A stretch of 64,000 bases of DNA. Origin: Sulfurimonas sp. GTDB lineage: Bacteria > Campylobacterota > Campylobacteria > Campylobacterales > Sulfurimonadaceae. Under the pieces are notes generated by a model, which made no database searches, had not been told where the DNA came from, and saw only the letters and a list, made by a program, of their open reading frames with translations. A program made the position numbers and the translations under genes. The number at the start of each line of letters is the position of its first letter. Position 1 is the stretch's first letter. The DNA lies in NCBI GenBank assembly GCA_027013295.1, contig JALUXP010000058.1:1-64000 (forward strand). The letters run 5' to 3'. Shown here piece after piece: positions 34,314-50,136 of this stretch.

Positions 34314-34682
34314 TTATTGCATTCCGCTTCCACATTTTCCAGTGCCACACTTCATCGCTGGTTGGGTTTTTCCACATTTACCATCCCCACATTTTATCGT
34401 GAGTTTATTTCCGTTTGGCTCGCGTACACAGTCGTAAGCCTCTTTGGTTGTTTTTGCATTTTTCACACACTCTTGTCTTGAGTCTTTCTCACGCATTTGA
34501 GAGAGCATATTATTTTTCTTTTTTGCTAAAGCCGTATTGCCATCGAACATGTTCGCGCCACATTTACCAGCCCCACATTTCATGCCATCGCCTAAAACAT
34601 CTCCACCTTTATCCACTTTACGAAAGTCACACCCACCTAAAAAGATGAGTGCTACTAAACTAAGCCATACTAATTGTTTCAT
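34314..34682 (-). CDS. Putative lipoprotein with three KCGxGKCG motifs (metal-binding candidate)
   Basis: Lipobox LIFLGGC; MKCGAGKCG, IKCGDGKCG, MKCGTGKCG; overlaps CusA-like CDS by 23 bp. Confidence 0.75.
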   Translation of the reverse strand: MKQLVWLSLVALIFLGGCDFRKVDKGGDVLGDGMKCGAGKCGANMFDGNTALAKKKNNMLSQMREKDSRQECVKNAKTTKEAYDCVREPNGNKLTIKCGDGKCGKTQPAMKCGTGKCGSGMQ

Positions 34683-37600
34683 TTGTTTTTTCCTCTAGTT
34701 TTTGTTCTAATTGTCTTTTTGCATATATCTCAAAGAGTATTGGAATTATAACAAGACTAAGGATAGCGGAGCTTATTATCCCTCCTAATACAGGGGCTGC
34801 GATGCGTTGCATCACTTCACTTCCTACTCCATGCGTGTACATGATAGGTGCTAGACCTGCAAGGATGGCAAAGACAGTCATTAGTTTTGGACGAACTCTC
34901 TGAACTGCACCCTCATAGATAGCAGCATTGAGATCTTGTTCATTAAAAGCATCACCATTTTTCTCGTATGACTCATCAACAGATTCTTGAAGATATACTA
35001 TCATCACTATGGCTGTCTCTGCTGCAACTCCAAGGAGTGCCAAGAAACCTACAATGACAGCAATACTCATAGAAAAGTTAAGTATATCTACATAGATAAG
35101 ACCACCCAAGAGTGCAAACGGCAGTGTAAAAAATACTATGAGTGTTGGTGCCATCTTTCCTAGTGCAAAATAGATAAGCACCAAGATACTTAAAATAACT
35201 GCAGGGATAATCCAAATGATTTTTTTCATTGCTGATGCTAAGTATTCTGATTGCCCAGCCCACTCCACATAGTATCCAGTATCAAAATCTATCTCATCTA
35301 TGAGTTTTTTGCCTTCTTCTTTGTATGAAGTCGCACTCACACCCTCTTTTGGTGTGATATAGACAAAAGTTACAGGGGTAGCCATCTCAGACTTGATAAC
35401 TGATGCACTCTGTCTGTATTTTACTTCAGCAAATGTAGAGAGAGGTACGAAACCAAGCGATGTTTTAATCTGTATATCTTTTATAGACTCGATGCTTCTT
35501 CTTTCCTTCTCGTCCAAACGCAGGGCAATAGGATAACGCTCCAAACCTTTGTACATAGTTGAGACTCGCATCCCACCGATGGCAAGTGCTGTGTATTGGA
35601 GCAACACATCCTTAGACAAACCATAGCGTTGGAGTTTCTTTTCATCTATGTCAATATCAAGATAATACCCAGCACTCGCTTGGTCAGCAAAGACCGATAA
35701 GGTCTTGTCAAATCCTCTGAGTTTTTCCTCTATGAGCTTCCCAAATTTTTGAAGCCCCTCTGGAGTTTGTCCATAAAGTTTGATACCAAGTGGTGTCCTT
35801 ATCCCTGAAAGAAGCATATCAATACGCCCACGGATAGGGTATGTCCATGAGTTTGTAAGCCCCGGAACTTGAAGGGCATCTTCCATCTCTTGACGAAGTT
35901 TTGAGTAGGTCATCCCCTTTCTCCACTCACTCTTTGGCTTAAGCGTAATGATGGTCTCAAGCATACTAAGTGGTGCAGGATCTGTCGCAGTAGATGCTCT
36001 ACCAGCCTTACCAAATACAGACTCAACCTCTGGAAAACTCTTGATGATTTTATCTGTTTTTTGCGTGAGTTCTTTAGCTTGATCTATACTGATCCCATAA
36101 GGTGTTACAGGCATATACATAAAGCTCTGCTCGTTGATCATAGGCATAAACTCCCATTTAAGACTTTTATAAAGGGGATACATATACCCAAGAGATGCTA
36201 CAACAAGGACAATTACTAAGTATTTGAGTTTAAGTCCATAGACAATAACAGGATGATACACCCAGATAAAAAATCTATTGAGAGGATTTTTAGCCTCTGG
36301 TAAAATTCTTCCCTTTACGAAAAAGACCATTAAAACAGGCACTAAAGTGATGGAGAGCATAGCTCCAGCTGCCATAGCAAATGTTTTCGTAAAAGCGAGT
36401 GGTGTAAAGAGTAAGCCCTCTTGCCCAGACAATGCAAAGATAGGCAAAAATGAAACAACGATAAGTGCAAGGGCAAAAAATATCGGACGACCAACAAGTT
36501 GAGAAGACTTCATTATAATATCTATACGCTCTTCATTTGTCGGGATTCTACCCTCTCTATGCTCAAACTTGTGTAGCATTTTATGGGCATTTTCTATCAT
36601 AACGATGGAGGCATCTACCATCGCACCAATGGCGATAGCAATCCCCCCTAAACTCATAATATTTGAACCAATGCCAAAGAGAAACATAAGTAAGAAAGTG
36701 CTTCCAATAGTAAGTGGAAGCACGATAAGTACGATAAGTGATGAACGAAAGTGCATCAAGAAAAGTCCGATGATGATAATAACGATAATACTCTCCTCTA
36801 TGAGCGTACCTTTGAGTGTATCAACCGCTTTTTCTATGAGTGATGAACGATCGTAAACTGTAGTTACATCGACACCATCTACTTTAAGCTCTTTCATCTT
36901 TTTCTTTACACGCTGAAGTGCACTGTAGACATCCTCGCCATAGCGAATTAAGACGATTCCCCCTACGACTTCACCATCGCCATTGAGGTCGGCAACCCCT
37001 CGACGCGCTGCAGGAGTGAGTTCTACGCGACCAATATCACCAAGTGTGATTTGCACCCCACCTTTTTCAGTTACGACAAGTTTACGGATATCATCTAAAT
37101 CTTTCACATAACCTTTCGCTTGTACCATCCACTCAAAACCATTTTCTATCACTATACGACCACCGGTATCGTTGTTGTTAGACTTAAGCACTTTTGCAAC
37201 ATCGTTGATGCTAAGGTTGTAGCGGATGAGATTATCATTATTGACAGTTACTTGGTAAGTTGGGATAAATCCACCAATAGAAGCAACTTCACTTACACCG
37301 TCTACACCCATTAAAGCGTATTTATAATAATAATCTTGTAGTGTACGCAACTGTGCTAGATTTTTTGTCTTGGAACTTAGTGCATACTCGTATGCCCAAC
37401 CAACACCCGAAGCATCTGGCCCAAGTGAAACCTCCATAGAATCAGGAAGCTGTGACTGTACAGAAGCGAGTTGTTCAAGTACACGGCTTCTAGCCCAGTA
37501 GAGGTCAGTTCCCTCTTTAAAGATGATGTAGACAAGCCCATTTTCATAAGTAGAATACCCACGAACAGTCTCTATATCAGCAATAGCTAAAAACTGAGCC

Positions 37601-37809
37601 ACAAGGATGTAAGTTCCCTGTTCTTCAACAATCTCAGGAGATTGTCCTGCCCAATTAATCTGCACTATCACCTGAGGAGGGGAAAGATCTGGCAGAGCAT
37701 CTAGTGGAGTGTTCTTCATAGCATAGTATGAACCCATAGAGATAAAAAGTGTCATCATCAGTATTAAAAACTTGTTCTTAATACTGAATTCTATTAGTTT
37801 TTCAATCAT
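34660..37809 (-). CDS. cusA: Heavy-metal efflux RND permease, CusA/CzcA family
   Basis: 1049 aa, ENAHKMLHKFEHR, GPDASGVGWAYEYAL, AGQSPEIVEEQGTYI. Confidence 0.9.
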   Translation of the reverse strand: MIEKLIEFSIKNKFLILMMTLFISMGSYYAMKNTPLDALPDLSPPQVIVQINWAGQSPEIVEEQGTYILVAQFLAIADIETVRGYSTYENGLVYIIFKEGTDLYWARSRVLEQLASVQSQLPDSMEVSLGPDASGVGWAYEYALSSKTKNLAQLRTLQDYYYKYALMGVDGVSEVASIGGFIPTYQVTVNNDNLIRYNLSINDVAKVLKSNNNDTGGRIVIENGFEWMVQAKGYVKDLDDIRKLVVTEKGGVQITLGDIGRVELTPAARRGVADLNGDGEVVGGIVLIRYGEDVYSALQRVKKKMKELKVDGVDVTTVYDRSSLIEKAVDTLKGTLIEESIIVIIIIGLFLMHFRSSLIVLIVLPLTIGSTFLLMFLFGIGSNIMSLGGIAIAIGAMVDASIVMIENAHKMLHKFEHREGRIPTNEERIDIIMKSSQLVGRPIFFALALIVVSFLPIFALSGQEGLLFTPLAFTKTFAMAAGAMLSITLVPVLMVFFVKGRILPEAKNPLNRFFIWVYHPVIVYGLKLKYLVIVLVVASLGYMYPLYKSLKWEFMPMINEQSFMYMPVTPYGISIDQAKELTQKTDKIIKSFPEVESVFGKAGRASTATDPAPLSMLETIITLKPKSEWRKGMTYSKLRQEMEDALQVPGLTNSWTYPIRGRIDMLLSGIRTPLGIKLYGQTPEGLQKFGKLIEEKLRGFDKTLSVFADQASAGYYLDIDIDEKKLQRYGLSKDVLLQYTALAIGGMRVSTMYKGLERYPIALRLDEKERRSIESIKDIQIKTSLGFVPLSTFAEVKYRQSASVIKSEMATPVTFVYITPKEGVSATSYKEEGKKLIDEIDFDTGYYVEWAGQSEYLASAMKKIIWIIPAVILSILVLIYFALGKMAPTLIVFFTLPFALLGGLIYVDILNFSMSIAVIVGFLALLGVAAETAIVMIVYLQESVDESYEKNGDAFNEQDLNAAIYEGAVQRVRPKLMTVFAILAGLAPIMYTHGVGSEVMQRIAAPVLGGIISSAILSLVIIPILFEIYAKRQLEQKLEEKTNETISMA

Positions 37810-37811
37810 GA

Positions 37812-38813
37812 TTAGTAAAGCCCGTTAATTTGTGCATCTGAATCCATCATAAACAAGGCATTGTTTACAACCTCTTCACCTTCACTTAGCCCATCTGTTA
37901 TCGCATAGGTATTAGCATTGATCACTTTGACCTGTACCTCTAAAGGCTCATACTCACCTTCGTACTCTCCAACCATAAACACATAATGTTTTCCATTTTT
38001 AAGAATCACCGCAGTTGATGGGAGGGTAAGCTGTGTGAGTGAATTTTCGAGTGAAATCACTGTAGCATACATCCCAGGGAAAAGTTGATTTGCACTATTT
38101 TTAACACGCAAACGAAGCGTAAGCGTTGCTACTTTTGGATCGAGTTCTGGATAGAGTAGTTTATTTGTAGTTTTATACACAGTATCTAAACCTTTAAACC
38201 TTAGCTCATACTTTGGTGTAATTGAGAGTTGTGCGCGTTCCTCCTCAAAGAGCTTTGCCTCTACCCAAACTTCATCAAGATTGACGATTTGAAAGATCCT
38301 TTGTTTTGCTTTAAAAGCACTACCGTTGTCAATACTTTTTTCAAATATATAACCACTCTGTGGTGCATAAATTTTCGTATTTGGCATCGCTTTATCTTGT
38401 TTTATAATCTCTACTATCTCTTTTTGACTCACGCCTAAAAGTTCTAACTTGAGTTTTGCACTCTCAAGCATCCCTTTATTTTGTCTTTCCTGTGTGTATT
38501 TGTAAGTATTGAGGTACTCATCTTTTGCTTTAAAAACTTCTGGTGAATAGACCTCGGCCAAAAGTTGACCTTTTTTCACTTTCATGTAAATTTTATCTGC
38601 ATAAAGTTTGACTACATACCCACCAAACCTTGGTGACATATCATATATTCTTGCTTCATCAGCTTTGACAAACCCATAGTTTTTGACCCTTTGCGAGAGT
38701 GTTTGTTTTTTTACTTTAACAGTTTGCACAGAAAAAAGCTGCTCCACCGTTGCCTCTTTTGCACTCAAAACCATTGACACAGCAAGTGCCAATAAAATAG
38801 TTATTTTTTTCAT
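37812..38813 (-). CDS. Efflux RND periplasmic adaptor (CusB-like)
   Basis: Signal peptide, barrel-sandwich fold (KVKKGQLLAEVYSPEV), TKIYAPQSGYI. Confidence 0.88.
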   Translation of the reverse strand: MKKITILLALAVSMVLSAKEATVEQLFSVQTVKVKKQTLSQRVKNYGFVKADEARIYDMSPRFGGYVVKLYADKIYMKVKKGQLLAEVYSPEVFKAKDEYLNTYKYTQERQNKGMLESAKLKLELLGVSQKEIVEIIKQDKAMPNTKIYAPQSGYIFEKSIDNGSAFKAKQRIFQIVNLDEVWVEAKLFEEERAQLSITPKYELRFKGLDTVYKTTNKLLYPELDPKVATLTLRLRVKNSANQLFPGMYATVISLENSLTQLTLPSTAVILKNGKHYVFMVGEYEGEYEPLEVQVKVINANTYAITDGLSEGEEVVNNALFMMDSDAQINGLY

Positions 38814-39991
38814 TGTAATTCTCCCCTTAAGGCTGAAATTTTTGCATTTTCTCGATTGTAATTTGCTATCGCACTGATGCTCTTTTGTTCTAACTTTAAT
38901 TTTTGTTCTAACAAGTATATATATTTAAAAAGATCCCCACCTGTAGAGATACTTGAACTTGTAAGTTTAAACATGTGTGCAACTTGAGGTAAGGCAGCAT
39001 CATGGATGAGATGGTATATCTCATATTCTGATTCCATCTGTCTGTAGATACTCATGAAATCTGCATCGATTTTTAAACTTATGTCATTTTTAAGGCTTTT
39101 TGTTGCAAGGATGAGTGTTCTTTGCTCCTCCTCTTTCATATCTTCAGTACCATACATTGGCAAAGAAAGTCCAAAACCCAAGGTAAAATAGTCATTGTAG
39201 TTCGGTCTTCGTGAATAAGCACCTATCACATTCAAATCTGGGTAGTTATTGATCTCGGCATTTTTAATCATCGCTTTATTTTTAAGAATCTCTTTTTCTT
39301 TTAAAAGTAATTCTGGGTTTTTACTTAGAGCAGATTTCAGGCTCTCTATACTTGGCATCTTCTCTTGCATAGACAGGCTTAGTGTGATTTTGTTAACTTC
39401 TATGGCAGTAAGATACGAGAGTCTTTGGTATGCAGTAAAAATTTTTGATTTGAGGACACTCTTTTGAATTTTAAATTCAGTTAAAGAGAGCTCAGCTGAC
39501 ATGATACCCATGTGTTGATTTTTACCTGTGGATGTGTAAGACTCTGAGAGTTCTATATTTTGTCTTGTGATGTTTTCATATTCTTGAATAATTTTTAAAA
39601 GCTCTTGGAGTTCCCAAATATTATACGCTTGATTCTTAATCTCATTAACAAGTTTTACTTGTGCATCAAAGAGTGTAGAATCTAAAATGCCTTCATCTGC
39701 TTTACTGATCTCAAGTAAAGTATCTCTCTTTCCATAGTATGGAAGTTTTTGTTGCAAAGTAAGTGTTTGCTTATGCATCTTTTGTGTTTTGTCAAGATTA
39801 TCTGCTGAAAATGACAAAACAGGGTTAGCAAATTGTTTAGAGATATCTTGTGCTGATTGGTTTGCTGTAATCCTATGTTCAATCGATGCTAAGCTTGGAT
39901 TTTTTTCTAAAGCTTGTGTGATGAGCTCATCAAGGCTTAGAGCAAAAAGCTCTAAACTCAAAAACGATAGGAGTAATAATACTTTTTTCAT
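38810..39991 (-). CDS. TolC-family outer membrane efflux protein
   Basis: Signal peptide, OEP repeats (NPSLASIEHRITA, NPELLLKEKEIL), operon position. Confidence 0.88.
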   Translation of the reverse strand: MKKVLLLLSFLSLELFALSLDELITQALEKNPSLASIEHRITANQSAQDISKQFANPVLSFSADNLDKTQKMHKQTLTLQQKLPYYGKRDTLLEISKADEGILDSTLFDAQVKLVNEIKNQAYNIWELQELLKIIQEYENITRQNIELSESYTSTGKNQHMGIMSAELSLTEFKIQKSVLKSKIFTAYQRLSYLTAIEVNKITLSLSMQEKMPSIESLKSALSKNPELLLKEKEILKNKAMIKNAEINNYPDLNVIGAYSRRPNYNDYFTLGFGLSLPMYGTEDMKEEEQRTLILATKSLKNDISLKIDADFMSIYRQMESEYEIYHLIHDAALPQVAHMFKLTSSSISTGGDLFKYIYLLEQKLKLEQKSISAIANYNRENAKISALRGELQ

Positions 39992-40001
39992 AAAATTTTT
40001 C

Positions 40002-40385
40002 CTATATGTTTATAGAAGTTTTAACTCTTGATTTTTTACCTGTTTTAGGAGTGATGAAGATAAAAAGTTGCCAAGTTCCACCCATTGCTAGGTTAACAGT
40101 TACTTGGTATTTTCCATTGCCTAAGTCTTTTGCATCTGTTTTAGACTCCATCGCTGGCATACCTGGCATCGCTGGCATAAATGCTTTTACTTTTACTTTT
40201 GCCCCTGCTGGGATTTGACCTTTTTGTTTGATATCAAGGATAAAAGTATTGGAACCTACTCCAAGTGGTTTCTCGGATGAGATGTGGATTGTAGTCGCTC
40301 GAGATTTTGCATCTTTGTCGAATGCCGCTGCGTGTAATGATGTTAGTAGTAACATCGCTGAAAATATGATAGATAAAGTTTTCAT
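40002..40385 (-). CDS. YtkA/FixH-like secreted protein with MPAMPGMPAM motif
   Basis: Signal peptide; KVKAFMPAMPGMPAMESKTDAKDLGNGKYQVTVNLAMGGTWQLFI. Confidence 0.75.
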   Translation of the reverse strand: MKTLSIIFSAMLLLTSLHAAAFDKDAKSRATTIHISSEKPLGVGSNTFILDIKQKGQIPAGAKVKVKAFMPAMPGMPAMESKTDAKDLGNGKYQVTVNLAMGGTWQLFIFITPKTGKKSRVKTSINI

Positions 40386-40470
40386 ATTTGAGTTCCTTTA
40401 TTTTTTAGATTGAGTAATTATACAATCTTTCTGTGCAGTGAGTGTGAATGTTTTTAGGGAAGATGGAAGA

Positions 40471-43056
40471 CTACCCTAAATATTCAATAAAGGCTGGTTT
40501 TGAAAAATTTGGAACATCATCATAGGAAAAAACTGCATAATATTTTTTTGTGTTTTTATCACCAAAATTATCGTAAGTGTAAGTATCTGTTCCACCATAT
40601 AATTTTTGTCCATCATAAGGTGAACAAGGAATTTTAAAAGGGTTTTTTACAACTATGGCACCTTTATATCCATCATCATCTGGAGTATCCCATTCTAGTT
40701 TAACTATACCATTTTCATTACTATACCTTAGATTATTCACTTTATCTGGAGCTATGCGTCTTTTTTTAATATAGTTAATAACTAATGATGGCCGTTTAAC
40801 TCTTTTAGAATCACACCAACTGACAGTTTGAGACTTTGTCATTGATTTTTGAGAGGAGGAGGAGATTATAAAAACAACTTTTGAATTTTTTTCTGCATTT
40901 AGAAGCATCTCTTCTATCGCATGTTTATCAAAAACGAATCGTTGTTTTGCTCGATTTTTAATATCCTCAACGCTTACATCATAGCCGATACGCTCTATAA
41001 TATTGCGGGACTCTATTTTTTCATAAGTTCTTTCACCTTCAAATGGGAGAATCATCTCTATGTGAAAACGAAGTGAATTTTGAGAATTTATATTACTTGC
41101 CTCTATATCTATATAGGCATCTGAAATAACTGTATTTTCTATATCTGGTAAATTAGATAAATCAAATTCTATATAACCATACTCTTCTTTAGCATTTTTA
41201 TCATAGCCAACTCTTAAAGTTGCCTCTTTGATGCTCTCTTTAGACACGGTATATTCTAGGGATGATTGTAGATCAATTTTTGCTTCATTGATGGTATAAG
41301 ATATGTCGAATTTTGGTCTATAAGTAAGCCCTCCACTAAACTTACCATAACCTATATCCCACTGCATCATTTGAGATGCTCTACTTAAAGGTAAATAAGA
41401 TGGTCCTTGCATTCTAAACACAGCTTCTCTTCGCTTGAGCGACTTTTGTAATACTTCTATCTCTTGCGATGCAAATTTGTATCTTCTCCAAATTCCCTGA
41501 GAAAGTTGTGCAGAACCTGTTGGCCTGTCTATATAACTCAAGACTTTAGCACTTTTAATATCGTCAAAACTACTCATACTCTCAACAGTACGCTCATCTA
41601 TCTGTCCAACTCTCCATTCACCGAAACTTTCCACCTGAACAGAGACTCTATTCATAGGATAAAAAGAGATTGATGCACTTGTAATAATTGCATTTTCAGG
41701 AATCGTACTCAGTGAAAATCCACAAACACCGTAACATTCACCTTTACTTTCTGAGATACCTACAAAAAGAGAGTTGTTCCCAAAATGTTCATTGTTGTTT
41801 TTTGTTTTTTCACCAACATACCCAATACTATCGGCAGACGGATATAAAATCTTAGAAAACATATTGTCAGCTGGATGTGTTCTTACACCACACATTTGAG
41901 CGAATGGTGATTTTATATACCTGCTTTTGCACACTGCTCTAAGATAATAGTAATAGTTTTTAGAGGGTGTAAGATTTTTATCTATAAAGGTCTTTAACTT
42001 TGTCATCCCTATTCTATTTGAAATTTGAGCACAACCTTTTTTCTTATAAGAGCGATATATTTCAAAGTATAAACTATCATCTTCTATATAATCCCAAGAA
42101 AGTTCTACCTCTCTTGAAGAGAGTTCAGATGCAACAAAATTTTTAATCCTAGGGAGGGTGTCTTCTTTTGCATAATTTTTCACTTCCGATAGTGCATAGA
42201 TAAGGGCTGGAATATTTTCATCAATATTTTCACTCATCTGTTCTTGGTAGTCACTAATATTTCTTGTTCCTACCTCAGCAACCAAAGCTAATGCACCTTG
42301 AGCATAATAAAATTCTCGACCACTCCCTGAGATAAGATGCACAGGTGGTTTACCCATATGCACACCATACTCTCGCCCCGATTCTTTTTTTATCTCCTCT
42401 GCCATATTTCCTGCTAGAAGATTCAAATCAATGGCATCCTCAGCATCTTCATGGATAAAATTATGTGCAGGAAAAAAAACATTGCCTTGTGAGTGATAAT
42501 CAAGAGCGATAGTGATATTTTTATGCTCTAAGACAAAATCCCTTAACGCAGCTGTCTCTGGCTCACTAAAAGCAGATGGTCCTGAATATACATTTGATGT
42601 TGTATCTTTATTTGGAGTAAAGCCAACCTCAAAGTTTCTATTGAGGTCAACACCAAAACTACCATCAGCATTTTTCCTTCTATTTTTTCTCCAAAAAGAA
42701 AAGTGATTTCTGGAGTACTCAAACCCATCAGGGTTTGCACATGGGACCATATAGAGTGTAGTCCTATCAAAAACTGCATTAAGCTGTGGGTCGTAGTCAA
42801 TATGTTCTAAAATATACTTTGCAAAACTTAGAGAGAGTTCTATCCCTATCCACTCTCTTGCATGGATAGTACCAGTATAAAAAAGAGCAGGTTTTTCTTT
42901 GTTATTGTCTACATCTTTGGTGATGCTTACAACGATAATATCTCTGTTTTCCCAAGTCTTACCAATAGACTCAACTCTCACTAATTTTGGTTTATTTTTT
43001 TGTGCCTCTTTGAAAAATGCTACACACTCATCATAGGAGCTATATTGTTCTCTCAA
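40471..43056 (-). CDS. M14 zinc carboxypeptidase with FN3-like and DNRLRE-like C-terminal domains
   Basis: Zinc site HAREWIGIE, ANPDGFEYSR, DLNRNFEVG, DYHSQGN, catalytic VAEVGTRN; FN3-like LPRIKNFVASELSSREVELSWDY...; two beta-rich DNRLRE-like segments. Confidence 0.85.
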   Translation of the reverse strand: MREQYSSYDECVAFFKEAQKNKPKLVRVESIGKTWENRDIIVVSITKDVDNNKEKPALFYTGTIHAREWIGIELSLSFAKYILEHIDYDPQLNAVFDRTTLYMVPCANPDGFEYSRNHFSFWRKNRRKNADGSFGVDLNRNFEVGFTPNKDTTSNVYSGPSAFSEPETAALRDFVLEHKNITIALDYHSQGNVFFPAHNFIHEDAEDAIDLNLLAGNMAEEIKKESGREYGVHMGKPPVHLISGSGREFYYAQGALALVAEVGTRNISDYQEQMSENIDENIPALIYALSEVKNYAKEDTLPRIKNFVASELSSREVELSWDYIEDDSLYFEIYRSYKKKGCAQISNRIGMTKLKTFIDKNLTPSKNYYYYLRAVCKSRYIKSPFAQMCGVRTHPADNMFSKILYPSADSIGYVGEKTKNNNEHFGNNSLFVGISESKGECYGVCGFSLSTIPENAIITSASISFYPMNRVSVQVESFGEWRVGQIDERTVESMSSFDDIKSAKVLSYIDRPTGSAQLSQGIWRRYKFASQEIEVLQKSLKRREAVFRMQGPSYLPLSRASQMMQWDIGYGKFSGGLTYRPKFDISYTINEAKIDLQSSLEYTVSKESIKEATLRVGYDKNAKEEYGYIEFDLSNLPDIENTVISDAYIDIEASNINSQNSLRFHIEMILPFEGERTYEKIESRNIIERIGYDVSVEDIKNRAKQRFVFDKHAIEEMLLNAEKNSKVVFIISSSSQKSMTKSQTVSWCDSKRVKRPSLVINYIKKRRIAPDKVNNLRYSNENGIVKLEWDTPDDDGYKGAIVVKNPFKIPCSPYDGQKLYGGTDTYTYDNFGDKNTKKYYAVFSYDDVPNFSKPAFIEYLG

Positions 43057-43075
43057 TCTAATGCCTTAAAGTTAT

Positions 43076-44404
43076 TTATTTTTTAAATGATTTTGCCCAT
43101 AGTTCAACTTGTTCCACAGACAAACTAATAAACTCTTTGAGTTTCTCAAAAGTAGTAATCTCTTTTGCTTCTATAGTCTCTTTTATATCAACCGCAACTT
43201 CTTCTTCCATACCTTGGAGTGTCATTAACTCTGTCAAAGAAATTTTATCTACTTCAAACAGTTTTTCATCTGAAATTTTAGAAGAGATGGAAGATGTAGC
43301 ATCACCTTTTACCTCTTGTGGTAAATCTTCCTCTTTAAGAGGTGGCTCTATCTTATTTGGCAAGGCATCTATATCTCCATCTTCAGTGATTTGCATGTCA
43401 AAGTTTCCCTTATCTGCCAGCCAATACGCACCATCTGCAGATGGTTCATACTTTGCAAAATAAAGATGCCTTAATGTTCTTAAGACTGATGGGTCCATTT
43501 TGCCAAGCTCTTCCCATGAATATAATGGAACATGTGGAAGTCTAAACTTTCCACCGCTAAGATCCCACATAATATACTGACCAATCCAATCTCTCACATA
43601 AGGAAATGCGGCAAAAGCTGTCGCACACTCTATGATGTAAGCTTTGTCAGTATTTTCATCTATACCAATATCACAAGCCCAATACTCAGCCTTAGCAGCC
43701 TTACTTGCCTGCACAGCTAATTCCAGTGCCGCCATAGGGACATTATCGTAAGACATATCACCACCTTGAGAGGTGTTGGTGATCCATTCTCCTGCACCTG
43801 AGTATCTCCAAAAAGCACAGATAGGTTTATGCCCTATTAACATTACACGAATGTCTCCGCTAAATTTTAAAGGGATAGCATCTTGGGTATAGACTGGTTT
43901 GTATTTTTTTTGTGCAAAGAGTTCAGTAGCTTCTTGATAGTTATCAACCTTATGAACAAAGTATCCACCATAGTTAGATGCACCATAACTTCGCTTGACT
44001 ATCTGTGGATAGTGGCAGTTTTTAAAATGCTCATCTGCAACTTTATCATCATAAGTAATAAGAGTTTTTGGAGCTGCTATATTGTACTTCTGACAAAAAA
44101 GAGTTACATTTTCTTTGGACTTATTTGAAAACTGTGTTTCTATAGAAGGGATAAATCGCACCTCTGGAAGTGCAAGTGCTATCTCTTTAAATGTTTCATA
44201 AGCAGTAGCAGGGATGTTTCCAACTAAAACCTCAATCTTCTTTTTCTTTACCTCAGCAATAAATCTCTCTTTGTCATTTTTCCAATGGTATGTCACCATC
44301 TCTATCTTATCTGGCCATCCTTTGAAATTACTCTTATCAAAGAATCTCAATACATAATCTAAATATAATAATCCTATTTTAGGAAGTTTCTCTCTTTTTG
44401 ACAT
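43076..44404 (-). CDS. ATP-grasp domain ligase with C-terminal helical (HhH-like) extension
   Basis: KRSYGASNYGGYFVHKVDN, RVMLIGHKPICAFWRYS, WACDIGIDENTDKAYIIECATAF. Confidence 0.75.
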   Translation of the reverse strand: MSKREKLPKIGLLYLDYVLRFFDKSNFKGWPDKIEMVTYHWKNDKERFIAEVKKKKIEVLVGNIPATAYETFKEIALALPEVRFIPSIETQFSNKSKENVTLFCQKYNIAAPKTLITYDDKVADEHFKNCHYPQIVKRSYGASNYGGYFVHKVDNYQEATELFAQKKYKPVYTQDAIPLKFSGDIRVMLIGHKPICAFWRYSGAGEWITNTSQGGDMSYDNVPMAALELAVQASKAAKAEYWACDIGIDENTDKAYIIECATAFAAFPYVRDWIGQYIMWDLSGGKFRLPHVPLYSWEELGKMDPSVLRTLRHLYFAKYEPSADGAYWLADKGNFDMQITEDGDIDALPNKIEPPLKEEDLPQEVKGDATSSISSKISDEKLFEVDKISLTELMTLQGMEEEVAVDIKETIEAKEITTFEKLKEFISLSVEQVELWAKSFKK

Positions 44405-44405
44405 T

Positions 44406-45323
44406 TTATTTTCCTTTTTTCTTTTTTGTTTTTCTATCTATCATATCTACTATAAGTTCAATTTTTTTATTGTTAAAATTCAAACCCATCTTCTCCTGCT
44501 CAGGAGTGGCGAACGCGGGAATACCATTGACCTCTAAGACAACATACTCCTCTTTTTTTCTATCGTAGATAATATCTACACCCCCTATGTCAACATCAGT
44601 AGCCTTACAAGCTTTTTTTGCAATTGACACTATCTCTTCATTGGCTTCTCGCATGAAAACGCTACCACCAGATGTTACATTTGTTCTCCAGTCTGTCCCA
44701 CTTGCTTTACGCCCATAACAACTTACAAATTTACCATCTACAATATCGACTCTAAAATCAGTATTGTCATAATCTATAAACTTTTCAACATAAAAATATC
44801 GTAAATCCATTTGATTTAGAAAAGGCATAAGCATATCTAGGTTCGCTTCATTTTCTATCTTAGTAAGACCTACTCCACCCCAACCATCAGTTGGTTTATA
44901 AACCATTTTATCCCATTTTTTGATGATTTTTTTGAGTTCATGTCCATCATCTCGATGGCATAGATTGTAATCTGCCGTTTGCACTCCATGATTTCTTAAA
45001 ACAAATGATGTATGAAATTTATCTTCCGTTAAGGCAAAAGAATCATAAGAGTTAATCATAGGTATAGCACGATTAAGTGCTTGATAAAGATACATTTGGT
45101 ACTGTGTTTGTTCACCAGCATTATAGGAGAAAAACAGATCTAATTCCTTGTTAAGCTTTACTCCATCAAAAATAATATTTCCATTTTTTGCTATAGCATG
45201 TCGCAGATTGATATCATCTAAAGTGTCAATATCTCTCTCTTTCAATTTTTTTACGATTTTTTTTGCAATCTTATCACCACCACCATTACTGTAGAGCCAC
45301 ATTCCTATTTTTCTATTTCCCAT
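44406..45323 (-). CDS. RimK-like ATP-grasp ligase
   Basis: MVYKPTDGWGGVGLTKIEN, DFRVDIVDGKFVSCYGRKASGTDWRTNVTSGGSV, VVLEVNGIPAF. Confidence 0.85.
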   Translation of the reverse strand: MGNRKIGMWLYSNGGGDKIAKKIVKKLKERDIDTLDDINLRHAIAKNGNIIFDGVKLNKELDLFFSYNAGEQTQYQMYLYQALNRAIPMINSYDSFALTEDKFHTSFVLRNHGVQTADYNLCHRDDGHELKKIIKKWDKMVYKPTDGWGGVGLTKIENEANLDMLMPFLNQMDLRYFYVEKFIDYDNTDFRVDIVDGKFVSCYGRKASGTDWRTNVTSGGSVFMREANEEIVSIAKKACKATDVDIGGVDIIYDRKKEEYVVLEVNGIPAFATPEQEKMGLNFNNKKIELIVDMIDRKTKKKKGK

Positions 45324-46440
45324 CTATTTCCCTTAAATTAAAATCACCATTTTCTATAAAATAGCTAAAAAGTTTTTCACTCATCTCAACTCTATTTTGA
45401 AAACTTTTCTTAGATGCTCTTTCGTAAATGGTATGATCACCATCTCCAAAAGGTCCAAATCCATCCAAAGTTACTACACCAGATGCACTCACAATATTCG
45501 CATCACTTACGCCACCTCTTTTTTCATGATTCAGTGAGTTGTTAGTGATGTGTTCTATATTTTGAATGAGGTCTAAAGATTTTTGAGTTACTTCCATTAC
45601 ATCACGCTGAATCCCACCGCTAAGAGTAGATACACAACCATTAACATAGGAGGTCTTAACTATCTTGTCAATCGCCAAAAGGAGTCTATCTCGTTCCTCT
45701 TTTTTTTCATAACGCATCTCAAAAGTTAGTTTTGCTTGAGGGCTAATGGTGTTGGCACCAATCCCCCCTTCAATCTTACCAACATTAACTGTTGTCCCTT
45801 TTTCTAAGTTTGTAAGTTTAACTAAGTTTTGAAGTTTGTAAGAGGCCTCAAGGTTGGCATCGTTGCCCTGAGCATAATAATTTCCTGCATGAGATGCTTT
45901 ACCTTTTATATCTATAAAAAAAGTACCTACACCTTTTCGAGCAGTGACAACTTCCATGTTTTTCCCTGCTGCTTCATACACAAAACAATAATCATACTCT
46001 TTGGCTAACTCTGCAGTTAAGAATTTAGAATCGTCGCTCCCTGTTTCTTCATCACTCACAAGTAAAATATCAATATTTTCAATCTCTATCTTTTTTACTT
46101 GTAGTCTCCGTAAAGCTTGCAAGACAACAAGGTTGCCACCTTTCATATCGCACACACCGGGTCCATATACCCAGTCCACATCCTCACTATATTTCTCAAA
46201 TGTATCAGGGGGGAAAACAGTATCAAAGTGACCTAAAAGTAGTAGCCTTTTATTTTTAACTATATGTCTGGACTTATAGTATTTATGATCTCCAATAAGT
46301 TCTCGATGATATGTCTGTACTTCAAGACCAAGTTCACCAAACCAAAGATCAAATCTATGGGCAACTTTATCTACACCAGCCTTATTTTGGGTATAGGAGT
46401 TTATATTGATTATAGTTTCTAAATCTTTAAAAAAGTTCAT
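45313..46440 (-). CDS. M20 family metallopeptidase (carboxypeptidase G2-like)
   Basis: LLLGHFDTVFP, YGPGVCDMKGGN, VSDEETGSDDS, GKASHAGN, FGDGDHTIYE. Confidence 0.9.
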   Translation of the reverse strand: MNFFKDLETIININSYTQNKAGVDKVAHRFDLWFGELGLEVQTYHRELIGDHKYYKSRHIVKNKRLLLLGHFDTVFPPDTFEKYSEDVDWVYGPGVCDMKGGNLVVLQALRRLQVKKIEIENIDILLVSDEETGSDDSKFLTAELAKEYDYCFVYEAAGKNMEVVTARKGVGTFFIDIKGKASHAGNYYAQGNDANLEASYKLQNLVKLTNLEKGTTVNVGKIEGGIGANTISPQAKLTFEMRYEKKEERDRLLLAIDKIVKTSYVNGCVSTLSGGIQRDVMEVTQKSLDLIQNIEHITNNSLNHEKRGGVSDANIVSASGVVTLDGFGPFGDGDHTIYERASKKSFQNRVEMSEKLFSYFIENGDFNLREIDGK

Positions 46441-46525
46441 AGAAATTCCAGATATTTAATATTTTAAAATTATACTATGTCTATGATTAAATTAAATCGA
46501 GATGAAAGGAAAGGGGAAAGAAAAT

Positions 46526-46550
46526 CTTAGAAGAATTACTTTCTTCTAAG
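46526..46550 (-). terminator. Intrinsic terminator of the rplS operon, overlapping the rplS 3' end
   Basis: Perfect 10-bp stem CTTAGAAGAA/TTCTTCTAAG with 5-nt loop; minus strand continues ATTTTCTTTCCCC. Confidence 0.7.
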
Positions 46551-46895
46551 TTCTTTAATACGAGCAGCTTTACCAGCAAGATCACGAAGGTAAAATAGTT
46601 TAGCACGACGAACACGACCGCGACGAATAACTTTTATCTCAGTTAATGAATCTGAAAAGATTGGAAAAATTCTTTCGATTCCAACGCCATTTGCACCAAT
46701 TTTACGAACTGTAATAGTTTTACCAGTACCTTGACCACGCTTAGCAATACATATACCTTCGTATGCTTGTGTACGAGACTTGTCACCCTCTTTAATAGTT
46801 ACAGATAAGCGAACAGTATCACCTGCACGAAAATCTGGGATATTTTTCTCAGAAGTTTGTGCTTTTTCAAAATTTTCTATGTATTTATTTCTCAT
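46536..46895 (-). CDS. rplS: 50S ribosomal protein L19
   Basis: [57 protein letters not shown]. Confidence 0.96.
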
Positions 46896-47589
46896 AGGAT
46901 TTCCTTATTTTATGCTTTTTAAGCTGCTCTGGTCTGAAAAACTTAGTCTTACATTCAGAGAGAGCGATTTTTAGTGTGCGAATTTTACTATGATTTCCCT
47001 TTATATATTCTTTAGGAACTTCAATTTCTTTATAATTTGTTGGTTTAGAGAAAGATGGTGCTTCTAAAAGGGGCGTTTCAAAACTTTCTATCTCTAAAGA
47101 TGCTGCATTACCAAGTACGCCTTCGATATTTCGTGCAATAGCATCACATAAAACCATCGATGGAAGTTCTCCACCTGTGAGTATATAATCCCCTATAGAA
47201 TAAACTTCATCTGCATACTTTTCAATAACTCTCTCATCTATACCTTCATAACGACCACTTACAAAAGCTATATGGGATTTTTTAGCTAATCGTTTTGCAT
47301 CGTTTTGTTTAAACTGTTTTGCAACTGGAGTTAAAAAAACAATATGGAGATCTGGGTCTTGTGCCATCAAGCTATCTAGTGCATCAAAAAGAGGCTGAGG
47401 GTTCATCACCATACCAGCACCACCGCCTACAGCTGTATCATCAACTTTAAGATGTTTGCTGAGAGAAAATTCTCTAGGATCTAAATAATCAATACTAAAT
47501 AACTCTTTTTCAATGGCTCTTTTTAAAATAGAGTCATTAAAATATCCCTCAACTATATTTGCAAATAAAGTAACAAAGGTAAACTTCAT
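46885..47589 (-). CDS. trmD: tRNA (guanine-N1)-methyltransferase
   Basis: [49 protein letters not shown]. Confidence 0.95.
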
Positions 47590-47591
47590 TA

Positions 47592-48125
47592 TCAGGATGC
47601 TTCTAAGATATCTTTGGCACCTTGAGTGGTGATGATTTTATTTTGAATGTCTGTTTGGATAACAAAAGGTGGATTATGTGGTAAAAGAAAAGTTTTTGCA
47701 AACCCTTCTTTGATGAGTAGTGCATCTGTTTGAATCTTTAAATAGTTCGCTGCGTTGATGCGGTCTATCTCAACAACTTTTCCTAGTGTTACATCAGCTT
47801 CAACAACGCTACACCCCTCTATGTCAAACCAAAAGTATTCACCCTCTTTTAACTTACAATTTTGTCGTGTTTCTTCTAGGGTTGCATATAGTTTTGTGTT
47901 GGTGTATTTTTTCGCATCTTCGGGAGTGAAGATTTTATCTATTTTGATAAGTCCTCTATCGAGATTTACCTCTCTTAGAGTTAATCTATCTTGAGTATTT
48001 ATAAAAAAAGATCTATTGCTTTTAAACTGCTCTGGGAAGTCAGTATTTAAGTGGAGTTTCATATCGCCTTTTATACCAACAGTTTTGCCGATAGTAGCGA
48101 TATGAAGAAGGTCTTGCATTTTCAT
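47592..48125 (-). CDS. rimM: Ribosome maturation factor RimM
   Basis: IGKTVGIKGDMKLHLNTDFP, GEYFWFDIEGC. Confidence 0.93.
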   Translation of the reverse strand: MKMQDLLHIATIGKTVGIKGDMKLHLNTDFPEQFKSNRSFFINTQDRLTLREVNLDRGLIKIDKIFTPEDAKKYTNTKLYATLEETRQNCKLKEGEYFWFDIEGCSVVEADVTLGKVVEIDRINAANYLKIQTDALLIKEGFAKTFLLPHNPPFVIQTDIQNKIITTQGAKDILEAS

Positions 48126-48199
48126 AGAGACTGCTTCCGAGTAAACTCTAATCTATTCCGGCTAAATTTTACTTTGTAAAATTTGCTCGTCATAGGAGT

Positions 48200-48436
48200 T
48201 TACACGGCTTCAACATTAATTCTATAGCTCATGCCATCTTTTGCTTTACAGCCAGAGATGACAGTTTTTATAGCACCAATCATTTTACCCTCTTTACCTA
48301 TAAGCTTACCAATGTCAGCTTGATTAGCAAAAAGTATGATCTCGGTAACTTCGTCACCTTTAGTTACATTAACTCTAATATCATTGGGAAATGATGCTAT
48401 AAGTTTTGCAAATTGTGCGACAAATTCACTGATCAT
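48200..48436 (-). CDS. khpA: KH-domain RNA-binding protein (KhpA-like)
   Basis: DIGKLIGKEGKMIGAIKTVI KH motif; operon position. Confidence 0.9.
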   Translation of the reverse strand: MISEFVAQFAKLIASFPNDIRVNVTKGDEVTEIILFANQADIGKLIGKEGKMIGAIKTVISGCKAKDGMSYRINVEAV

Positions 48437-48438
48437 GA

Positions 48439-48660
48439 TTAACGATTAGTGATTTTTTTAACACGATCACTCAATTGAGCACCTACACTTACCCAGTAGT
48501 CGATTCTTTCGTTATCTACTTTAAGCTCTTTTGTCATTGGGTTATAATGTCCAATAAGCTCTATCCAACCACCATCTCGACGCTTACGGCTATCTGTTAC
48601 CGCGATACGATAAAATGGTTGTTTTTTTCTTCCCATACGAGTAAGTCTAATTACTGTCAT
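48439..48660 (-). CDS. rpsP: 30S ribosomal protein S16
   Basis: [39 protein letters not shown]. Confidence 0.96.
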
Positions 48661-49110
48661 TTTTTTCCTAGTCTATCTTTTAACGATATCTGAGCAAAGC
48701 CCAGATATCTATGCTAGCCACCTAAGGCACTAAAATATCTCTTTTGAAATATTAATAAATTTTCGGGGTATTTTTTGCAAAATAAAATATAAATATTTAA
48801 TTGTGCCTCTTACCGCCTTTAAGTCATGAATATGAAAAATCATGCTCAATATGCGTAGTATATTTTGCATTTGCAAAATACCTTCTAATCACAGAGGGAT
48901 TATTTCAGAAGTTATTACGATGGTGGAATTATATCTAAATATTATTTAAATGTAAAGAATAAATTTTCAAGTTTCATCCTGATTACAACAAAAACAATCG
49001 CTCTTAATAAAATTTTTACATTCATTTGGATACAATACGCGTTCGCTTTACTGTTTTAACTAAAAATATGAGTATTTCTACCTATATAACTATGTATAGA
49101 TAAAAGTATT

Positions 49111-49228
49111 GGTGAGAAACTATAAATTCTCGCCTAAAAGCAATAGAGAAATTGACCTTAGTATAAGTTTCGTGTTCTTGCACGCAGCTTTAGTGAGATG
49201 AATTAGGTAAGGGCTTGTTCTTGCCTAA
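49111..49228 (+). promoter_or_regulatory. Structured leader upstream of rpmJ: three successive hairpins
   Basis: GGTGAGAA/TTCTCGCC (49111-49134), CGTG/CACG (49171-49184), TTAGGTAAG/CTTGCCTAA (49203-49228); GGATACAAT -10-like element at about 49030-49040. Confidence 0.4.
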
Positions 49229-49253
49229 GAAGAAAATGATAAAAAGGCTTTCC

Positions 49254-49367
49254 ATGAAAGTAAGAGCTTCAGTAAAGAAGATGTGTGACGACTGCATAGT
49301 CGTTAAGAGAAAAGGCATTGTAAGAGTAATCTGCAAAGTTAAAAAACATAAACAGAGACAAGGATAA
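49254..49367 (+). CDS. rpmJ: 50S ribosomal protein L36 (absent from the supplied ORF track)
   Basis: Hand translation [37 protein letters not shown]; 37 aa, CxxC...C...H zinc pattern. Confidence 0.96.
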
Positions 49368-49369
49368 CC

Positions 49370-49732
49370 ATGGCTCGTATTTCTGGTGTAGATTTACCTA
49401 AGAAAAAACGCGTAGAGTATGGATTGACATATATCTATGGAGTTGGTTTACATGCGTCTCGTCTAATCTTAGACGCGACAGGCATAGACTATAATAAGAG
49501 AGTTTTTGAACTTTCTCAAGAAGAAGTAGCAGCTATCACTGCGGAGATCCGTACTAACCATATGGTTGAAGGTGATTTGCGTAAAAAAGTAGCTATGGAC
49601 ATTAAAGCACTTATGGACATTGGTTCATATCGTGGTCTTCGTCACCGTCGTGGTCTTCCATGTCGTGGTCAAAAAACTAAGACAAATGCGCGTACTCGTA
49701 AGGGTAAACGCAAAACTGTCGGCGCAGCGTAA
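49370..49732 (+). CDS. rpsM: 30S ribosomal protein S13
   Basis: [51 protein letters not shown]. Confidence 0.97.
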
Positions 49733-49743
49733 GGGAATAGATT

Positions 49744-50136
49744 ATGGCAAAAAGAAAAGCTGTTAGAAAAAAAGTTGTAAAGAAAAATATTGCTCGTGGT
49801 ATCTGCCACATTGCTGCATCATTTAACAATACACTTGTAACAATTACAGATGAAATGGGTAACATGATTGCTTGGAGTTCTGCTGGTTCTTTAGGATTTA
49901 AAGGTTCTAAAAAATCAACTCCGTTTGCTGCACAAGCTGCAACCGAAGATGCAATTGCGAAAGCACAAGTACATGGTATAAAAGAACTTGGTATTAAAGT
50001 TCAAGGTCCTGGTTCAGGTCGTGAAACTGCAGTGAAGGCTGTTGGTGCTATTGAGGGGATCCGTGTTACATTCATGAAAGATGTTACACCTTTACCACAC
50101 AATGGTTGTCGTGCGCCTAAGCGCCGTAGAGTTTAA
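49744..50136 (+). CDS. rpsK: 30S ribosomal protein S11
   Basis: [37 protein letters not shown]. Confidence 0.97.

Follow-up and report, generated by a model that had tools for sequence, protein, structure and literature searches.

A 64,000-nucleotide stretch of DNA from Sulfurimonas sp. (assembly GCA_027013295.1, contig JALUXP010000058.1, positions 1 to 64,000; hereafter the window) carries four consecutive minus-strand genes encoding an M20 metallopeptidase, two RimK-like ATP-grasp proteins that we call GR1 and GR2, and an M14 zinc carboxypeptidase, and these four genes form a real module. We marginally favor the view that the module is a cytosolic write-trim cassette that places acidic amino acids, most likely L-glutamate, on some acceptor and takes them off again. 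A first-pass annotation of this DNA, made from the letters alone, had proposed a make-and-trim amide-ligation pathway. That reading is partly supported, with glutamate as the predicted donor and with GR2 perhaps other than a normal ligase. The genes are intact and match the originally reported coordinates, overlaps, and gaps, with Pfam agreeing on the families. M20 (45313-46440; 375 aa; Pfam M20 and M20_dimer) overlaps GR1 (44406-45323; 305 aa; Pfam RimK) by 11 bp, GR2 (43076-44404; 442 aa; Pfam RimK), a second, divergent ATP-grasp with a C-terminal extension, follows GR1 after 1 bp, and M14 (40471-43056; 861 aa; Pfam M14, E 3.3e-59) follows GR2 after 19 bp. The TTG start of M14 is backed by an AAGG-like ribosome site and by orthologues that start at the same residue.

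Co-occurrence of the four families, which the annotation had put forward as a check, was examined in 298 good-quality Campylobacterota genomes. GR1 was detected in 31 of them, spanning eight families, GR2 at full length in 31 (a further hit being a fragment), and M14 and M20 in 32 each; all four proteins are encoded in 30 genomes from seven families. Pairwise hypergeometric P values for GR1, GR2, and M14 are ∼1e-37 or smaller, with kinship among genomes not accounted for. The M20 of the module represents a specific clade, because its matches are separated from the next paralogue by a wide gap in E value (1e-178 or lower versus 1e-62). Gene order M20-GR1-GR2-M14 is retained at many unrelated loci whose flanks vary by family, with M20 often flipped, and the neighborhood is conserved well past close relatives, in eight Campylobacterota families and in Photobacterium. 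Several Sulfurimonas genomes have a cluster without GR2 (M20-GR1-M14) and encode GR2 elsewhere in the same genome, directly downstream of efp. Neither a fifth common gene nor an encoded substrate was found among neighbors of at least 70 aa, smaller open reading frames not having been searched systematically. A mirror-tree comparison gave correlated distances (r 0.40 to 0.81, with GR1 at the low end), which adds little without a species-tree control, and in a comparison of nonsynonymous and synonymous substitution (dN/dS) between the window and genome G005 the synonymous sites were saturated, M14 giving the sole value (0.05 at dS 3.3), an unreliable one.

The strongest clue to the chemistry of the module, judged from sequence, is the M14 enzyme. 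It consists of a ∼290-aa peptidase followed by a ∼570-aa portion that contains fn3-like and DNRLRE-like regions (the C-terminal two thirds, 40471-42150). Such regions are usual in surface proteins, and M14 carries them despite having no signal peptide evident on inspection by eye, an absence that leads us to expect cytosolic action. The zinc and catalytic residues H65, E68, H188, and E261 and the carboxylate-binding R140 are invariant in 90/90 sequences. The specificity position, R247 (codon 42316-42318, translation checked), corresponds to position 255 of bovine carboxypeptidase A and, in a gap-free stretch of alignment, lines up with the specificity Asp of carboxypeptidase B2 (CPB2); it is Arg in 89 of the 90 sequences and Lys in the other. 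In four M14 enzymes used as outgroups this column holds T, I, D, and G, an approximate comparison since the outgroup alignment is gapped in the loop. Arg255 is what makes carboxypeptidase O specific for acidic C-terminal residues; a frog paralogue that also has Arg255 cuts a Glu-Glu substrate but not Phe-Ala or Phe-Phe (PMC9925722). The module M14 is accordingly comparable to carboxypeptidase O in family, in Arg255, and in its predicted preference for acidic C-terminal residues; unlike that vertebrate surface enzyme, it comes from a bacterium, has no signal peptide, and bears ∼570 additional residues.

The other peptidase points in the same direction. The nearest solved relative of M20 is carboxypeptidase G2 (CPG2; 1cg2, E 6.7e-40), with the two proteins only ∼23% alike at the profile level. 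The zinc ligands and catalytic Glu are invariant in 100/100 M20 sequences, and equivalents of CPG2 R324 and N275 (CPG2 numbering counted from the alignment) are retained. M20 scored under the cut-off of every NCBIfam model among the 25 matches listed, and it is most closely placed as a putative CPG2-type enzyme, CPG2 being glutamate releasing. The early guess of a Glu-like substrate survives as a prediction.

GR1 appears from its sequence to be a canonical RimK-like ATP-grasp amide ligase that lies outside every named equivalog. It scored 66.0 bits with Pfam RimK (gathering score 21), and its nucleotide and Mg sites keep their Lys, Glu, Asp, Glu, and Asn unchanged in 110/110 sequences. RimK R189 and N262 touch the terminal glutamate of the chain (PMC10092738), and the aligned GR1 residues, R191 and N266, are likewise invariant in 110/110. 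The predicted GR1 model (predicted local distance difference test, pLDDT, 88) is nearest to RimK and ArgX, with LysX also among the nearest structures and graspetide ligases such as PsnB among the weaker matches. The top-scoring named model is MptN (137.5 bits; cut-off 350), and the scores with LysX/ArgX TIGR02144 (99.5 bits; cut-off 275.6), CofF (55.9 bits; cut-off 300), and RimK PRK10446 (46.4 bits; cut-off 331) also fall short. Clear orthology to a known pathway, which would have spoken against the first-pass proposal, is absent for both ligases, each being under the RimK, LysX, MptN, CofF, and glutathione synthase equivalog cut-offs. The donor of GR1 would resemble that of RimK and its acceptor would differ. 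At four loci (L093, L099, L102, and L109), the cluster contains a tandem second copy of GR1 that is 57-60% identical, which brings the number of ATP-grasp genes to as many as three.

GR2 is more divergent. Its Pfam RimK score is 44.7 bits (gathering score 21), it was unmatched by PRK10446, and it reached 62.8 bits with TIGR02144 (cut-off 275.6). Structure prediction, suggested at the outset for both ATP-grasps, gave a GR2 model of moderate confidence (pLDDT 72) that is nearest to ArgX and LysX. The window encodes a short form, and most orthologues end in helix-hairpin-helix domains: families of this kind were matched on most of 27 GR2 relatives, with HHH_3 in 12 (best E 2.7e-27). The efp-linked GR2 genes (L021, L022, L023, L024, L025, L028, L178, and L181) are of the long form and lie ∼30-50 bp downstream of efp, the elongation factor P gene, with which they probably form an operon. 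This pairing may hint at a translation-linked acceptor or may merely be a lineage-specific position.

Several lines of evidence support the acidic write-trim reading. Co-occurrence is near complete and gene order is kept, with GR2 elsewhere in the genome when it is off the cluster; GR1 is of canonical RimK type with the terminal-glutamate contacts kept; and the M14 position equivalent to 255 is basic in 90/90 sequences of a protein with no signal peptide, alongside an M20 nearest to CPG2. From these we infer glutamate as the donor, a division of labor among the four proteins, and reversibility. GR1 would use ATP to activate a carboxylate at the acceptor end and join an acidic amino acid to it through the amino group, as RimK and MptN do. 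GR2 would recognize the acceptor and then either make the first bond or present the acceptor to GR1. M14, through its Arg-bearing specificity pocket, would trim acidic residues off the C terminus of the chain, and M20 would take the last residue off the acceptor or clear free glutamyl conjugates.

Several observations weigh against this reading. The third Mg ligand of GR2, canonically Asn, is Ala in 89/89 sequences, so that the motif reads E259-C-A261 (A261 codon 43622-43624, placed by profile alignment with GR1 and checked by translation) instead of Glu-x-Asn. In GR1, Y67 and E71 occupy the aligned positions of RimK R64 and S68, the residues that grip the remainder of the glutamate chain, and because of these replacements GR1 may not elongate polyglutamate chains. 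The predicted acidic preference of M14 derives from one pocket residue, and the loop around R247 otherwise diverges from known M14 enzymes. Finally, some genomes hold only part of the set. M14 is alone in G283 (L246:6079-8676), flanked by argG and a carbonic-anhydrase-like gene at a place where the whole module stands in relatives; GR2 and M14 are retained in G247 (L245:5355-9421); M20 is alone in G093 (L247:6169-7266); and in Sulfurimonas G013 and G018, GR2 occurs without detected GR1 or M20, G013 being 88% complete. These exceptional genomes look like partial losses or incomplete assemblies. At one remnant locus, an eraser has been retained after the loss of both ligases.

The altered Mg site bears directly on the role of GR2. 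The presumption of intact active sites held for GR1, M20, and M14 and failed for GR2, which is without the Asn in every copy; of the two supposed ligases, GR1 is canonical and GR2 is perhaps a modified partner. An inactive or regulatory scaffold that brings GR1, as sole ligase, to the acceptor is a possible if doubtful explanation, which fits either type of acceptor and is not exclusive of the other readings. It would account for the Asn-to-Ala change and for the Gln that occupies the place of the adenine-side Glu of GR1; RimK N262 also contacts glutamate (PMC10092738), and the helix-hairpin-helix tail would suit a scaffold. However, K97, K137, R186, R200, N210, D245, and E259 of GR2 are invariant in 89/89, arguing for continued ATP use, and this strong invariance of the remaining site residues also argues against simple decay.

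The main rival to the write-trim reading shares its glutamate chemistry and differs in having a small-molecule acceptor: GR2 would start, GR1 extend, and M14 and M20 degrade a metabolite made with glutamyl or aspartyl units, for example the side chain of a cofactor or a compatible-solute peptide. We regard this as unlikely, while recognizing that MptN, the top named model for GR1, represents a coenzyme glutamate ligase, that CPG2, the enzyme M20 resembles, has folate-type conjugates as substrates, and that the named carriers of the module are largely organisms that we take, from their names and general knowledge, to be marine or from vents. A precedent exists in MyfA-MyfB, two ATP-grasps that make a coenzyme polyglutamate (PMC8141765). 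No cofactor-pathway gene is common to the neighbors, however, and neither the helix-hairpin-helix tail of GR2 nor an 861-aa M14 with extra domains would be expected for a small substrate. The protein version of the write-trim cassette, in which the tail of GR2 would find a nucleic-acid-associated or translation-linked protein and start or direct its modification, GR1 would add acidic residues, and M14 and M20 would erase them, is in our estimate quite unlikely when taken in this specific form. Ribosomal protein S6 was considered as an acceptor and appears disfavored: its tails in 12 module-positive and 14 module-negative genomes gave no separation, some positives having no acidic tail.

The remaining explanations fare far worse. 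Maturation of a ribosomal peptide, with the ATP-grasps modifying a precursor that the peptidases trim, finds an echo in the PsnB-type graspetide ligases among the weaker structural matches of GR1, but gaps in the window are at most 19 bp, no small gene is common to the loci (open reading frames under 70 aa were not searched systematically), and both peptidase families act on chain ends, making it very improbable. A loose peptide-scavenging neighborhood with no common pathway could explain why M14 alone, M20 alone, or GR2 with M14 persist in a few genomes; it is largely refuted by co-inheritance, with all four genes in 30/298 genomes, order kept at unrelated loci, and split clusters retaining the full set genome-wide, and is just as hard to credit. 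Least probable of all is a LysW-type amino-group-carrier pathway with GR1 as LysX/ArgX and M20 as LysK. In its favor, the LysX model gives GR1 99.5 bits, both ligases have ArgX and LysX among their closest structural matches, and argG lies next to the module in Arcobacteraceae. Against it, the LysX cut-off is 275.6 bits, the argG link is limited to that one family, and the LysW carrier was not detected in the genome of the window by a search whose control was positive in four genomes of the right kind. An anti-phage defense system was also considered and rejected, no PADLOC model matching any of the four proteins.

The pairing of an ATP-grasp writer with a glutamate-removing peptidase is already known from tubulin and from RimK-RimB. 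In tubulin glutamylation, TTLL ATP-grasps are the writers and M14 enzymes erase the acidic residues. The erasers include cytosolic acid-specific carboxypeptidases that act on tubulin (PMC6214572). The likeness is in logic, not descent; the tubulin system is eukaryotic, whereas the module M14 is of carboxypeptidase A/B type with Arg at position 255, not compared in detail with the CCP type. RimK-RimB, which polyglutamylates S6 in Pseudomonas and removes the glutamates, combines in one operon an ATP-grasp glutamate ligase and a glutamate-removing peptidase (PMC12239564), and the GR1 fold is nearest to RimK. RimB, however, is an aspartic retropepsin-like peptidase where the module has two zinc peptidases; the module also has a second, altered ATP-grasp, its GR1 is far under the RimK cut-off, and S6 tails do not track it. 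A similar logic has been suggested for RloC-RloA of the Pseudomonas RloA-RloB-RloC operon (osmotic stress), which encodes a cytosolic ATP-grasp and a peptidase cutting glutamate-rich sequences (PMC12239564); unlike the module peptidases, RloA is secreted and aspartic, and the module has no counterpart of RloB, a membrane protein. MyfA-MyfB, which builds the methylofuran polyglutamate side chain, resembles the module in having two ATP-grasps, one an MptN relative, but the accessible part of its description mentions no accompanying carboxypeptidases (PMC8141765), and GR1 scores 137 against the 350-bit MptN cut-off. Our literature search found no paper describing this gene set, a mention in the 2009 amidoligase survey of Iyer et al. 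not being excluded, in line with the first-pass annotation, which could name no characterized system with exactly these four genes. As far as that search shows, the gene set, an acid-pocket M14 beside ligases, and an altered ATP-grasp with a helix-hairpin-helix tail have no earlier description.

The module has probably moved between genomes. In the M14 tree, G321, of the same genus as the window, does not group with the other Sulfurimonas genomes and family f6 is scattered over several positions, and the marine gammaproteobacterium Photobacterium sp. DA100 encodes, unannotated on a 2.1-Mb replicon (L214:10718-17098), a complete module with a divergent M20. Because the M14 tree departs from the families and the complete module occurs in Photobacterium, horizontal transfer is likely, apparently including a crossing between phyla. 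Outside the Campylobacterota, spread was sampled through plasmid records, and the contig scan covered the best 80 loci. Carriage by phages or viruses was considered and rejected, phage records and viral contigs yielding no relative of GR2. A metagenome-assembled genome labeled Helicobacteraceae holds the closest named locus, whose GR1 is 96% identical.

Upstream of the cluster, the first-pass annotation had placed an rplS terminator isolating it from the rplS operon. A minus-strand hairpin is present (46526-46550; 10 pairs, 3 G-C), overlapping the rplS stop codon; it is weak, with 2 such sites against 2.3 expected in shuffled sequence, and the isolation of the four genes from rplS is plausible. 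A promoter scan gave no more sites than shuffles, and no RNA families were found at 39000-50000. The downstream operon (34660-40385) resembles a metal-efflux set, with genes for a resistance-nodulation-division (RND) pump, for membrane-fusion and outer-membrane proteins, and for a YtkA-like protein, and it probably has no connection with the module.

Only a few systems are known in bacteria that attach glutamate and take it off again. The module joins a zinc carboxypeptidase with a predicted acid-specific pocket to two unlike ATP-grasps in a near-indivisible unit, and the Arg at the M14 specificity position turns what was an unknown ligase cluster into a concrete, testable question, that of C-terminal glutamate cleavage. 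If the acceptor is a protein, the module would constitute an independent glutamylation code, the bacterial analogue of the one written on tubulin, and mobile between phyla.

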